Both the position numbers and the translations under genes were made by a program. This document shows positions 3,757-40,505 of a DNA stretch of 64,000 bases, in pieces. Each line of letters begins with the position of its first letter. Within the stretch, counting starts at the first letter, position 1. The DNA lies in the NCBI RefSeq assembly GCF_900104255.1, contig NZ_FNKZ01000002.1, positions 1 to 64,000 on the forward strand, in the 5' to 3' direction. The notes under the pieces are model-generated. The model ran no database searches, was not told the DNA's origin, and was given only the letters and a program-made list of their open reading frames with translations. Source of the stretch: Pseudoxanthomonas sp. CF385. Its GTDB lineage: Bacteria > Pseudomonadota > Gammaproteobacteria > Xanthomonadales > Xanthomonadaceae.

Positions 3757-4184
3757 GCCGCCGCCAGCGCGAGGGCCAGGCGCACCCAGAAGGCGATCAG
3801 CACCAGTGTCGCCACCGCGTAGGCGACGAAGCGGGTCATGACGTGGTTGAACGTGCAGTGCACCAGGCTGTGCACCGCACGCAGGCCGACGAAGACCCAG
3901 GCCAGCGCCAGCGATACCGCGTCGGCCACGCCGAGTTGCGCGGCCAGCAGCACGCCGGCGTAGAACAGCACCGGCAACTCGAACAGATTGCGGAAGTTGT
4001 CCGATGCGCGGGTGTCGGCCAGCAGCCGTACCGAATCGGCCGCGTTCGCCAGCGCCTGCGCATGGATGCGCTTGCGCGACATTTCACCCAGGCGGAGCTG
4101 GTACAGCCTGGCCCACACGAGGAAGGTCAGGCCGGCCATCGCCACTGCGGGCCAGAGGATCGCCGTGGCGGACGCGTCGCTCAT
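3753..4184 (-). CDS. MAPEG family membrane protein
   Basis: 143 residues with four predicted membrane helices and the MAPEG signature region ([18 protein letters not shown], then [11 protein letters not shown]). MAPEG proteins include glutathione-dependent membrane enzymes, but bacterial members of this short type have no established substrate. It sits between sdhB (4-base gap) and sdhE (4-base overlap). It is therefore transcribed with complex II genes, and whether it works with them is unknown. Confidence 0.82.
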
Positions 4185-4188
4185 GCGG

Positions 4189-4971
4189 TCAGGCGCGACG
4201 CGCCATCATCAGCTTCTTGATCTCGGCGATCGCCAGCGCCGGGTTCAGGCCCTTCGGGCAGGTACGCGCGCAATTCATGATGGTGTGGCAGCGGTACAGC
4301 TTGAACGGATCTTCCAGATCGTCCAGGCGCGCACCGGTGTCCTCATCGCGCGAATCGATGATCCAGCGGTAGGCCTGCAACAGGATCGCCGGGCCGAGGT
4401 AACGCTCGCCGTTCCACCAGTAGCTCGGGCAGCTGGTCGAGCAGCAGGCGCAGAGGATGCACTCGTACAGGCCGTCCAGCTTCTTGCGGTCTTCCGGCGA
4501 CTGCAGGCGCTCGCGATCCGGCGGCGCCGGCGTCTGCGTGCGGATCCACGGCTTGATCGAGGCGTACTGCGCGTAGAAGTGGGTCAGGTCGGGAACCAGG
4601 TCCTTCACCACGTCCATGTGCGGCAGCGGATAGATCGGCACTTCCGCTTTGGTGCAATCGCCGATCGCCTTGGTGCAGGCCAGCGTGTTGGTGCCGTCGA
4701 TGTTCATCGCGCACGAACCGCAGATGCCTTCGCGGCACGAGCGACGGAACGTCAGCGTGGGGTCGATCTCGTTCTTGATCTTGATCAGCGCGTCCAGGAC
4801 CATCGGACCGCACTTGTCGAGGTCGACATCGTACGTGTCGGTACGCGGATTGGCGCCGTCGTCCGGGTTCCAGCGGTATACCTTGAAGGTGCGCACATTC
4901 TTGGCGCCCTTCGCGGGGAAGTGCTTGCCCTTGGTGACGCGCGAGTTCTTCGGGAGGGAAAATTCGGCCAT
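4189..4971 (-). CDS. sdhB: Succinate dehydrogenase iron-sulfur subunit
   Basis: Iron-sulfur subunit of complex II carrying electrons from SdhA to ubiquinone. 260 residues. N-terminal 2Fe-2S ligands are C79, C84, C87 and C99 ([10 protein letters not shown]), and C-terminal 4Fe-4S and 3Fe-4S ligands lie in [12 protein letters not shown] (171-182) and [14 protein letters not shown] (228-241). The W of PSYWWN is near the quinone site in the family. It lies 18 bases downstream of sdhA within the sdhCDAB order typical of proteobacteria. Confidence 0.96.
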
Positions 4972-38264: not shown

Positions 38265-38657
38265 ATGCGCCCGATGATGATCTGCACCGCCGTGTTCGCG
38301 TGGGCGATGGCCACCGCCGTCGCCGCGCATGCGCAATCGCCGACCGACTACACGCAGGCCAAGCAGCGCGCCGACGCCGACGAGGCATCGTTGCCTGCGG
38401 CGACGTCGCAGACCTTGCTCGACGCGCAATCGCGGGTGCTCGGCGAGGCGATCGCCGAATGCGCCACGCCGAACGCCGATACGGCGCCGTTCGTGATCGT
38501 CGCCGAGTTGGATGCCGCCGGCGCGGTCCGCCGCACCTGGCGCGAGGGCGGCACACCGCTGGCGATCTGCGTGCAGAAGCAGATCAACCGCAAGACGCTG
38601 GCCGCGCCCCCGCGCTCGCCGTTCTACACCTCGTTCGAACTGAGCTTCACGCCATGA
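38265..38657 (+). CDS. Exported hypothetical protein
   Basis: 130 residues with a signal peptide cleaved about residue 23 (AAHAQS). The mature part has two Cys (ECATPN and AICVQK) that may pair, and a C-terminus KTLAAPPRSPFYTSFELSFTP. No family is recognised. It starts 2 bases after the sugar dehydrogenase stop and its own stop overlaps the thioesterase ATG, so the three are likely one transcript. Confidence 0.72.
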   Translation: MRPMMICTAVFAWAMATAVAAHAQSPTDYTQAKQRADADEASLPAATSQTLLDAQSRVLGEAIAECATPNADTAPFVIVAELDAAGAVRRTWREGGTPLAICVQKQINRKTLAAPPRSPFYTSFELSFTP

Positions 38658-39100
38658 GCGACAGCACCGACATCAACGCCCTGCTGCGGGCGCGCCTGCC
38701 CGCAGGCGTACCGCTGCAGATCCCGCCGCCCTGCCTGGTCGACATGCAGGGCGAGCCGGTGGCCTACGTGGAAGGCGAATCGCTGACGATGCGGTTCCCG
38801 GTACTGGCGCGCTACCAGAATCCGATCGGGCACATGCAGGGCGGTTTCATCGTGGCGGCGCTGGACAACACGCTGGGGCCGTTCTCGTACCTGATCGCAC
38901 CGCCCAGCGTGACGACGTCGCTCAACACGCAGTACCTGCGCCCGGTAACGCAGGAGATGCCGCACATCACGTGCCATGCGCGGTTGGTGGAACGCACGCG
39001 TACGCAGTTGTTCTTGGCCGGCGAGGTGCGCGACGACGCGGGCCGTGTGCTGGCGATGTGCCAGGCGGTGTGCCAGATCCTGCCGCAGAAGGCGGGCTGA
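38654..39100 (+). CDS. PaaI-type hotdog-fold thioesterase
   Basis: 148 residues with the hotdog pattern NPIGHMQGGFIVAALDNTLGPFSYL (central helix with the catalytic Asp and GG), TTSLNTQYLRPV and a closing beta strand. Family members hydrolyse acyl-CoA esters. ATGA overlap with the preceding gene. Substrate unknown. The large palindromic element begins 70 bases after its stop. Confidence 0.85.
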   Translation: MSDSTDINALLRARLPAGVPLQIPPPCLVDMQGEPVAYVEGESLTMRFPVLARYQNPIGHMQGGFIVAALDNTLGPFSYLIAPPSVTTSLNTQYLRPVTQEMPHITCHARLVERTRTQLFLAGEVRDDAGRVLAMCQAVCQILPQKAG

Positions 39101-39170
39101 ACCCGATACGCACATCCGTTGATGAGCGCATCGGGTTCATGGGTTTGCTGAGGCATGGCGATGGGTTTGG

Positions 39171-39662
39171 CATGGTGCCGCTCGCCGCGGGGGCCCTACT
39201 TTTCTTTGCTTGTGCAAAGAAAAGTAGGCAAAAGAAACACCCCCCGGCGGTCCGCCCACCGCTGCGCGGCGGGTGCGCAGTCCCGGCGGGAATTTTCGGA
39301 CGGGGCATCCTGCCCCGGCCGAAAACGGCGCACATCCTTGTGCGCCGCCCTGCGGGTTTTACCCGCCGTGACTGCCGGACCTCAGGGGCCCCGAAAGTCG
39401 AGACGGACATATCCGGCGGGCACGCCTTTGACCTGGCTCTTCAGGGCCCCCATGAGGCACGGCGAGTGGGCCGGGTAAAACCCGAAGGGCGCCGCCCGGA
39501 TGGGCGGCGTTTTCGTATGGCACATGGATGTGCCTTACGGAAATTCCCGGACCGCTCGCGGACCCGGAGCGAAGCGCAGGGCGTGCCGCCTGGGGTGTGC
39601 TTTCTTTGGTTACTTTCTTTGCACAAGCAAAGAAAGTGACGCCTCGCGGCGAGCGCACCATG
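39171..39662. repeat. 492-bp extragenic element: long imperfect inverted repeat of nested hairpins
   Basis: The gene-free stretch 39101-39707 is occupied by one structured element. Its ends (CATGGTG... and ...CACCATG) are inverted copies, and the two arms match each other inversely over most of their length. Each arm starts with a strong hairpin (ACTTTTCTTTGC-TTGT-GCAAAGAAAAGT at 39198-39225; ACTTTCTTTGC-ACAA-GCAAAGAAAGT at 39612-39637). Four smaller hairpins follow: 39302-39316, 39327-39346, 39491-39508 and 39519-39534. Read outside-in on its own arm strand, each has ATCC in or next to the loop. Both arms then carry a CGGGTTTTACCCG-like segment. Open frames across it are by-products. Similar sequences recur in Xanthomonad genomes as I remember them. 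Confidence 0.85.
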
Positions 39663-39707
39663 CTGGCTGCACCAGCAAGCTTGATACCGAGCGCAACATC
39701 CGAGGGA

Positions 39708-40505
39708 TCAACGCAGCTCGAACCGATCCGCATCCAGCATCGCCGGGAACCGCTCCCGATGCGCCGCCAACGCCTCCGCCGAAATCGTCGACGTCACCAC
39801 CCCCTCGCCCGCCGGCAACTCCACCACCGGCTGCCCGAGGAAATCGATCACCGCACTGTCGCCACTGTATGCGTGCCCGTTGCCATCCGTGCCCGCGCGA
39901 TTGACCGCCGCCACGTAGCAGAGATTCTCGATCGCCCGCGCCCGCAGCAGCGTCTTCCAGGGATAAGCCCGCGGCGCCGGCCAATTCGCGACGAACAGCT
40001 GCAGATCGAAATCCAGCTGGCCCGCGCGTTCGACATCGAAGCGATTGCGCGCGAACACCGGGAAACGCAGGTCGTAGCAGACCAGCGGATTGATCCGCCA
40101 CCCCTTCCACTCCACCGTCAGACGCTCACGACCGGCGGCGTAGCGCGTGTGCTCGTTCGCATAGCGGAACAGATGGCGCTTGTCGTAATGCTGCAGACCG
40201 CCATCGGGCATGGCGAACAGCAGACGGTTGAATACGCCGTCCGCCGTGCGCAATTGCACGCTGCCGGTCATCGCCGCATTGAGCGTCGCCGCCTGCTCGC
40301 GGATCCATGCCACCGTGGCGCCCTCCATACCCTCGGCCTGGTCGATCGCCTCGTTGCTGAAGCCGCTGGTGAAGGTCTCCGGCAGGATCACCAGATCGGT
40401 CTGCCCCGCGAGCGGCGCGATCAGCCCGCCGTAGTAGTCGCGGTTGCCCGCCGGATCGTGCCAGCGGGTTTCGCCCTGGATCAGGGAAATGCGCAGGTCC
40501 TGCAT
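39708..40505 (-). CDS. Omega-amidase YafV-type nitrilase-superfamily hydrolase
   Basis: 265 residues of the nitrilase superfamily with the Glu-Lys-Cys triad at E43 (ILPETFTSGF), K109 (HYDKRHLF) and C143 (LVCYDLRFP). The best match is the YafV/Nit2 omega-amidase branch, which hydrolyses 2-oxoglutaramate. It sits 19 bases downstream of a YbdL-type methionine aminotransferase on the same strand. Together they can drive glutamine-dependent transamination of the methionine keto acid to completion. Confidence 0.87.
   Translation of the reverse strand: MQDLRISLIQGETRWHDPAGNRDYYGGLIAPLAGQTDLVILPETFTSGFSNEAIDQAEGMEGATVAWIREQAATLNAAMTGSVQLRTADGVFNRLLFAMPDGGLQHYDKRHLFRYANEHTRYAAGRERLTVEWKGWRINPLVCYDLRFPVFARNRFDVERAGQLDFDLQLFVANWPAPRAYPWKTLLRARAIENLCYVAAVNRAGTDGNGHAYSGDSAVIDFLGQPVVELPAGEGVVTSTISAEALAAHRERFPAMLDADRFELR

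Follow-up and report, generated by a model that had tools for sequence, protein, structure and literature searches.

Inverted pairs of a putative structured-RNA repeat with CsrA/RsmA-type loops and a predicted triple-helix head in Pseudoxanthomonas and other bacteria

In the window analysed, a stretch of 64,000 nucleotides from Pseudoxanthomonas sp. CF385, a thioesterase superfamily gene and a carbon-nitrogen hydrolase gene face each other across a 492-bp element made of two arms in inverted order, each with two inner GGA-loop hairpins and a structured outer end that we term the head (Table 1). An earlier sequence-only reading of this DNA had described inverted ends and arms that form a near-palindrome, four inner hairpins, each showing ATCC at its loop when read from the outside in, and one terminal (head) hairpin per arm; all of these are present. 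R1, a covariance model of the head, matches the left arm at 39157-39251 on the minus strand and the right arm at 39586-39677 on the plus strand. The fold energy of the plus strand of 39171-39662 corresponds to a z-score of -17.7 as DNA and -16.8 as RNA, and 0 of 100 shuffled sequences were as good in either case. A search for sigma-70-like promoters between 39050 and 39760 found none. The genome of this strain holds three full-length copies of the element (100, 90 and 89% identity) plus a weaker fragment.

Table 1. Features of the element and its neighbours (positions in the window; 'copies' are the 44 full-length copies compared in the text)
Feature	Position	Strand	Description
Left neighbour, thioesterase superfamily (4HBT) gene	38654..39100	+	PF03061; converges on element
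Whole element	39171..39662	.	Two inverted, putatively RNA-coding arms; sharp ends CATGGYGC...GCACCATG
Left arm	39171..39392	-	RNA strand 39392 -> 39171, tail to head
Left head hairpin H1 (stem S2)	39195..39228	-	CCTACTTTTCTTTG-CACAAG-CAAAGAAAAGTAGG
Left head loop L1	39230..39237	-	TTTCTTTT; predicted third strand parallel to purine strand AAAGAAAA
Left head P2 5′ strand	39238..39241	-	GGTG; 3/4 pairs with loop CACA, one mismatch
Left GGA hairpin B	39293..39325	-	Loop CAGGATG; GGA in 42/44 copies
Left GGA hairpin A	39327..39346	-	GGCGCACA-AGGA-TGTGCGCC, includes ACAAGGATGT; GGA in 44/44 copies
Central spacer	39393..39443	.	Separates the two tails; weakly conserved among copies
Right arm	39444..39662	+	RNA strand 39444 -> 39662, tail to head
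Right GGA hairpin A	39491..39508	+	GCCGCCC-GGAT-GGGCGGC; GGA in 43/44 copies
Right GGA hairpin B	39510..39543	+	Loop ACATGGATGT; GGA in 44/44 copies
Right head P2 5′ strand	39596..39599	+	TGTG; 4/4 pairs with loop CACA at 39622-39625
Right head loop L1	39601..39607	+	TTTCTTT; predicted third strand parallel to purine strand AAAGAAA
Right head hairpin H1 (stem S2)	39609..39640	+	GTTACTTTCTTTG-CACAAG-CAAAGAAAGTGAC
Right terminal region H0 / inverted end	39641..39662	+	Mirror of 39171-39192
Right neighbour, carbon-nitrogen hydrolase gene	39708..40505	-	PF00795; converges on element

Sequences matching the element at E <= 0.001 were found in 36 of 38 genomes of the genus, some of them with full-length copies and others with matches of arm length. 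When 50 copies were aligned, both ends were sharp and the arms conserved, while the ~50 bases at the centre were variable. Base pairing was assessed in 44 of the 48 full-length copies found, a set that includes the window's copy and from which four copies with altered heads were excluded. Standard pairs were formed in 95.3% of the pair cells, and 20 of the 73 pairs showed changes on both sides; shuffling gave 10.0 ± 1.6 such pairs (0 of 500 shuffles reached the observed value), and slid controls gave six at most. The loops were kept as well, with GGA in 173 of 176 and A(N)GGA in 155 of the 176. The proposal that the stems covary around constant loops, as expected of a selected structure, was thus borne out, and both signs that the copies were to be searched for, compensatory changes and kept loops, were seen.

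The strand on which the structure is selected can be read from the loops and from the mispaired stem positions. On the strand read from centre to end in 118 arms collected across genera, 152 of 233 perfect hairpins had GGA in the loop and three had TCC (92 and 85 of 779 in shuffled sequences); in 137 arms from the genus, the corresponding figures were 244 and six of 358 hairpins. The commonest loops on the strand that runs from the centre to the end were CATGGATG, CAGGATG, CAGGGATG and CAAGGATG. On the GGA strand of 216 GGA hairpins, the non-Watson-Crick stem positions comprised 40 G.T, 11 A.C and 106 others, and in the outer stem of 113 heads 39 G.T, 2 A.C and 13 others, the 39 to 2 ratio being inflated by shared ancestry, chiefly through the common GTTAC/GTGAC stem. 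Together, the loop motif, the wobble positions and the covariation indicate that selection acts on the fold of a single strand that runs from tail to head, the simplest candidate being RNA. That an arm would fold as an RNA read from the centre outward, with its GGA loops read inside-out, is well supported by these comparisons. The informative reading of the loop is then GGAT, inside-out, on the strand complementary to the one that gave ATCC, and among the options offered by the sequence-only reading, the best fit is a structured RNA made from both strands, with one sense arm per strand.

The inner hairpins resemble binding sites of CsrA/RsmA. Each arm of the window has two adjacent hairpins with GGA loops, the GGA of hairpin B lying 27 nt (left arm) or 28 nt (right arm) past that of hairpin A. 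The right hairpin A of the window has no A before its GGA, and A(N)GGA is found at this place in 28 of the 44 copies. Two strict hairpins were present in 34 of the 118 cross-genus arms, with a GGA-to-GGA spacing of 26-30 nt (median 28). The loops of the arms are CANGGAYG and CAGGAYG, that is, of the CsrA/RsmA type: in the available text of the sources, the preference of RsmA is given as CANGGAYG and that of CsrA as RUACARGGAUGU by SELEX and AUGGAUG by CLIP (PMC7705225), and one CsrA dimer is stated to bridge sites 10-63 nt apart, best above 18 (PMC7652899). On sequence grounds, the arms agree with the CsrA/RsmA rules in what their loops read, in where these lie and in how far apart the sites are. 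Function cannot be deduced from GGA loops alone, since Xanthomonas RsmU, according to the part of the report available, largely retained RsmA binding and its phenotype when all four predicted GGA motifs were changed (PMC7694677).

The head lies 3′ of these hairpins and reads, on the RNA strand, GGG-(P2 5′ strand)-UUUCUUU(U)-outer stem-UUUCUUUG-(P2 3′ strand)AG-CAAAGAAA-outer stem-hairpin. Its outer stem covaries, with changes on both sides in 6 of 13 predicted pairs. The four bases that form the P2 5′ strand pair with the first four bases of the loop; among the 210 heads with a matching L1, to which the count was limited, all four pairs were formed in 171, by 16 different pairings. Among 86 unusual loops, 65 fitted the upstream strand of their own head, a share that fell to 4% after swapping (a looser parse, which admitted hairpins other than heads, gave 65 of 173 unusual loops; 65 of 86 is the count used). 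The right head of the window fits fully and the left one in three of its four P2 pairs, the loop bases CACA at 39211-39214 being the 3′ strand of the helix in this case. That the head would fold as an H-type pseudoknot is well supported by this covariation.

The loop L1 covaries too, with the purine tract that it would have to contact. Of 510 hairpins, 284 had a pyrimidine tract upstream, and in 167 of these the purine tract was asymmetric; with the tract defined as an A-G-A core, an exact parallel third strand was present in 127 of the 167 and an antiparallel one in 15. For the rarer tracts, 41 of 50 matched, against a mean of 14.1 and a maximum of 21 in 500 swaps (e.g. AAAAGAAA with UUUUCUUU, AAGAGAAA with UUCUCUUU, and AAAGAGAA with UUUCUCUU). 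Two faulty definitions of the tract did not separate the directions: a six-base cut gave 238 parallel and 233 antiparallel of 313, and a tract that included the outer-stem purines gave 22 and 38 of 238; the counts used are those with the A-G-A core. L1 is predicted to lie in the major groove and to form U.A-U and C.G-C triples, the triple helix itself being a prediction from the covariation; neither it nor the pseudoknot had been noticed in the sequence-only reading. H-type pseudoknots with major-groove triples are known from telomerase RNA and from the SAM-II and preQ1-II riboswitches. In these, as would be the case in the head, loop 1 crosses the groove of stem 2 and a pyrimidine third strand runs parallel to the purine strand. 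Unlike them, the head has triples predicted from covariation, belongs to a bacterial intergenic repeat and has no known ligand or regulated gene.

An exact scan with the 22-base core of the head yielded at least 120 stretches. The matches listed came from Xanthomonadaceae, Pseudomonas, Pasteurellaceae, Nevskiaceae/Solimonas, Hydrogenophilus and others, including some Clostridia and Chitinivibrionales assemblies; as the heads of these loci (L037-L156) were found by the exact 22-mer, they cannot vary inside it. The 120 exact-scan matches listed and 20 loci from the survey of the class described below contained 215 heads in all. In 41 neighbouring pairs the heads faced outward with the tails inside, and 39 of these had a layout like that of the window, at a distance of 393-662 bases; 16 pairs faced inward, 107-222 bases apart, five pairs were in tandem, and 92 of the 215 heads had no neighbour within 900 bases. 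The occurrence of outward pairs besides lone and inward-facing heads indicates that the 492 bp comprise two arms placed in opposite directions. The unit of the family, as judged from these arrangements, is the arm of ~220 nt, which also occurs alone or head-to-head. Head matches lay within ~150 bases of contig ends at six loci (L045, L057, L066, L069, L139 and L146), and repeats of this kind may break draft assemblies. A head-like sequence was also seen at six places in the record of an Ilyobacter polytropus plasmid (NC_014633.1, for example at 223999-224047), an organism far outside Pseudomonadota.

The arms showed no preferred orientation towards neighbouring genes. Among the 118 arms, the upstream gene was on the same strand in 60 cases and on the opposite strand in 49, and the downstream gene in 53 and 54, respectively; nine arms were flagged as lying inside a called gene. 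A dedicated role in 3′-UTRs is unsupported for this reason, and a rule to that effect was dropped.

The model R1 was used to follow the head across wider samples, with at most 18 (class) or 21 (order) candidates scored per genome, so that copy numbers are lower bounds. In the window's class, 54 of the 229 genomes sampled (51 of 196 genera) had heads, as had 13 of 30 genomes of one family (f107) and 64 of 200 genomes of the order of genome G261. This order is probably Burkholderiales, since the loci of G261 resemble records from Comamonas, Variovorax and Methylibium; in both the class and the order, most of the positive genomes were multicopy. CsrA (PF02599) was detected in 194 of the 229 class genomes, in 1 of 30 of the family and in 2 of 200 of the order, one of these last two matches being over the cut-off. 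CsrA is described as scarce in betaproteobacteria in the accessible part of a published account (PMC7366521). Comparison of the two lists for the class showed that 9 of the 54 head-positive genomes lacked CsrA. An overall association of the head with CsrA, which had been considered, was not found; the payload, i.e. the part of the arm ahead of the head, alone follows CsrA. Since the head is untied to CsrA and common in an order that nearly lacks it, CsrA binding cannot be its function.

The payload was examined in arms from 31 other genomes of the class sample and 40 genomes of the G261 order, excluding arms with <150 bases of body, identical bodies and three head-positive genomes negative for CsrA (G095, G160 and G252). 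Strict CsrA-type hairpins, for which shuffling gave a chance rate of 0.3-0.4%, were present in 36 of 83 arms and 13 of 27 genomes with CsrA (the other 14 CsrA-bearing genomes had none), and in 0 of 61 arms from the 40 genomes of the order. Strict hairpins were also seen in 8 of 9 arms from four genomes that were incomplete (73-87%) and gave no CsrA match; for two of the four, CsrA was present in a sampled congener (G048) or family member (G085). CsrA was found in all 13 of the genomes examined that had strict hairpins and were >=95% complete. The P values of the contrast (7e-11 for arms, 8e-7 for genomes) overstate independence because the CsrA-less order is one large clade; the payload thus appears to follow CsrA in a pattern that is strong but not independent. 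A different payload loop (TGTTTGAGC...GAGTT) was present in 41 of the 61 arms of the order and in 30 of the 83 arms of the genomes with CsrA. A payload that we call type C, with the hairpin loop TGTTTGAGC...GCGAGTTT on the RNA strand, is common to Pasteurellaceae and the CsrA-less order (L060, L061, L142, L155 and L309-L356).

We consider it probable that the element consists of two structured-RNA modules of a dispersed family, one inverted relative to the other, and that the type present in the window is a two-way CsrA/RsmA sponge or tether. Transcription could cover either strand, its likeliest source being read-through from the two neighbour genes that converge on the element, and the RNA from either strand would contain one arm in sense. 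Two GGA hairpins 27-28 nt apart would provide a geometry that one CsrA/RsmA dimer can clamp; 3′ of them, the H-type pseudoknot, with its predicted major-groove triple helix, and the closing hairpin would protect or define the 3′ end of the RNA. As the arms are inverted, the pair would offer a sense arm in both directions and could therefore serve as a sponge or tether wherever it is located. A read-through transcript would hold both arms, and their mutual pairing could compete with the display of the sites. The head would be the constant part of a wider repeat family, and the payload ahead of it would be exchangeable, of the CsrA type in genomes with CsrA and with another loop elsewhere.

The constant head might itself be the functional part, acting in RNA 3′-end stability, processing or termination, with the GGA loops bound by some other factor or merely incidental. 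Such a role would agree with the head being more widespread than the GGA payload, with the use of the same head by the TGTTTGAGC...GCGAGTTT payload, and with the location in the head of the pseudoknot and third-strand covariation. It would leave unexplained why the loop sequence, the free N position and the constant spacing of 26-30 nt match the CsrA/RsmA rules, and why none of the 61 arms from the CsrA-less order has the GGA payload, and for these reasons we think it unlikely.

The history of the window's locus bears on whether the element is mobile. In the genus, 37 of the 38 genomes were found to have the neighbour gene, and its locus was examined in 30 of them. Among the 14 closest genomes, 13 had the element at this locus, in the orientation of the window in seven, in the opposite one in five and in an unclear one in one (L209); in the remaining genome (L210) both neighbour genes were present and the element was absent. 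In the 16 more distant genomes, no element was found in the flanks of the neighbour gene, and the thioesterase gene was nearby in five. Dispersed multicopy repeats with sharp inverted ends, present or absent and in both orientations at one locus, would be expected of an element that moves as single-stranded DNA (IS200/IS605- or RAYT-like, or as a cruciform), with hairpins recognised by a transposase and a wobble bias that belongs to that strand; inverted ends, dispersed copies and presence/absence are likewise shared with MITEs and other non-autonomous transposons. The sequence-only reading had included a non-autonomous mobile element among its options and had proposed a search for target duplications and empty sites. 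The dispersal, the variable occupancy and the two orientations are compatible with that option, and one empty site (L210) was indeed found, but no target-site duplication was evident by eye in 50 flanks, and no transposase or autonomous copy was shown. Against mobility of this kind stand the loops of the CsrA/RsmA type and the excess of G.T over A.C. Furthermore, no match to the element was found in 50,697 phage records, and the window query matched plasmids solely on 14 replicons of 0.67-2.6 Mb. We regard this explanation as improbable. Queries from other loci had further matches, on a 373-kb Comamonas plasmid and, over 49 bases, on Burkholderia cepacia plasmids of ~204 kb. Bacterial palindromic repeats such as REP/BIME, ERIC, YPAL and SMAG are, like the element, intergenic, multicopy and hairpin-rich and occur in several mutual orientations. 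The element differs from them in its ~220-nt arms with a pseudoknot, CsrA-type loops and a payload that appears swappable; REP/BIME palindromes are 20-40 nt long, with an adjacent RAYT transposase.

Copies at the same locus in different genomes had a mean identity of 0.829 (36 pairs), no higher than that of other pairs (0.819, 859 pairs) and below that of copies at different loci within one genome (0.872, 51 pairs), which suggests that copies undergo turnover or gene conversion. These values, and the position of copies at conserved intergenic sites, might be expected if the element were an intergenic repeat that has no function at present, either passively selfish or gene-converted, and that kept its structure only through its mode of spread. 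A repeat of that nature predicts neither CsrA-type loops confined to CsrA-bearing lineages nor third-strand covariation in an RNA-type pseudoknot, and we hold it to be improbable as well. Several open frames of 107 to 373 aa overlap the element, but a decayed or overlapping protein-coding gene, already discounted in the sequence-only reading, can be dismissed with near certainty given the compensatory stem changes, the indels and the lack of a Pfam match in the four overlapping frames scanned.

Some further features of the copies were observed. In many genomes, the flanks at the window's locus (L201-L211) contain a second repeat beside the element, a CCCCTCTCCC...GGGAGAGGGG hairpin followed by TTGGGGTGAGGG; the empty site L210 contains only the hairpin. 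An insert of ~28 nt (TTGACCAGCCATTCGGCTGTTGAAAAGCG type) lies within the head region of some copies (L180, L187 and others in Pseudoxanthomonas), and at L180 complementary inserts are present in both heads of one element, as if the ends had been altered in concert. At the loci examined among L157-L166, two copies lie ~5.5 kb apart around a block of flagellar genes, one of them between flgF and flgG; from reading of the proteins, we take this block to be flgB-flgF. The idea that such pairs flank an rRNA operon was rejected, as 16S and 23S probes gave no match and the flagellar block was found instead.

The element was compared with known RNA families. At gathering level, Rfam had no match in 38900-39900; MIR8622, ncS037 and RsmW were rejected as matches of the window since they scored far below gathering (RsmW, the best of the overlapping clan members and the only one of them that the search keeps, reached 22.6 bits against 52). 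TwoAYGGAY (RF01731) was not listed in that interval up to E = 5, and its cut-off was passed in none of the 38 genomes of the genus, seven of which gave weak matches. There was likewise no gathering-level match in 40 further head-bearing loci. Among 18 other loci, two riboswitch matches were unrelated, and one locus (L067), a relative, matched TwoAYGGAY inside the element, both arms passing the gathering score (48.5 and 44.8 against 43 bits), each inside-out. TwoAYGGAY is predicted, in the text available, to bind CsrA on the basis of motif matches (PMC4333381; family described by Weinberg 2010, PMC2864571). It shares with the arm a pair of successive GGA-loop hairpins that an outer stem encloses; unlike the arm, the part of its model compared has no pseudoknot head, and the accessible portions of its descriptions mention neither inverted pairs nor a dispersed repeat family (PMC2864571, PMC4333381). 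GGA-loop hairpins of the CsrA/RsmA type are also shared with CsrB, CsrC, RsmX, RsmY, RsmZ, RsmW and Xanthomonas RsmU. The CsrB-type RNAs and RsmU are single sRNA genes or sRNAs derived from mRNAs (RsmU, with four GGA motifs, is processed from the 3′-UTR of XC1332, according to the available part of PMC7694677), whereas the element is a dispersed repeat with an arm for each strand and with a pseudoknot for which a third strand is predicted.

The Aggregatibacter sRNA AaHKsRNA22 matched three Pasteurellaceae loci (L040 4000-4098, L090 4808-4900 and L144 510-594). As the three matches lay off the payload, it was rejected as being the arm itself. At L090 and L040 it overlaps weak head-like matches on the same strand (4773-4816 and 3968-4011), and at L144 the strand differs; to judge from these positions, AaHKsRNA22 may be an insert in the loop of variant heads.

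No description of the family was found, by sequence string or by topic, in the literature covered, most subscription journals and bioRxiv being outside its scope. Examples are known of CsrA-binding RNAs, of palindromic repeats and of triple-helix pseudoknots, and we found no report of their combination. We tentatively propose, as a reading somewhat less likely than not, that the element represents a very widespread, previously undescribed class of bacterial repeat RNAs that would have a constant pseudoknot head, stabilised by a covarying pyrimidine-purine-pyrimidine triple helix, and exchangeable payloads and would often occur as inverted pairs. In lineages with CsrA, the payload would be a one-dimer CsrA/RsmA clamp, forming a distributed sponge in place of or besides genes of the CsrB/RsmZ type, and in those without CsrA it would be a different one. 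Xanthomonads have RsmA and were reported in 2014 to be without antagonist RNAs of the rsmB type (PMC3937308); RsmU was reported later, and a homologue of CsrB, RsmX, RsmY or RsmZ is stated not to have been found, in the part of that report available (PMC7694677). A family that scatters RsmA-type clamps in Xanthomonads would make the question of what titrates RsmA in these bacteria directly testable. Through the covariation of its third strand, the head is a strong candidate for an RNA triple helix that is common in bacteria, and one chassis with payloads that differ by CsrA status would constitute a natural experiment on how repeat RNAs gain regulatory cargo.
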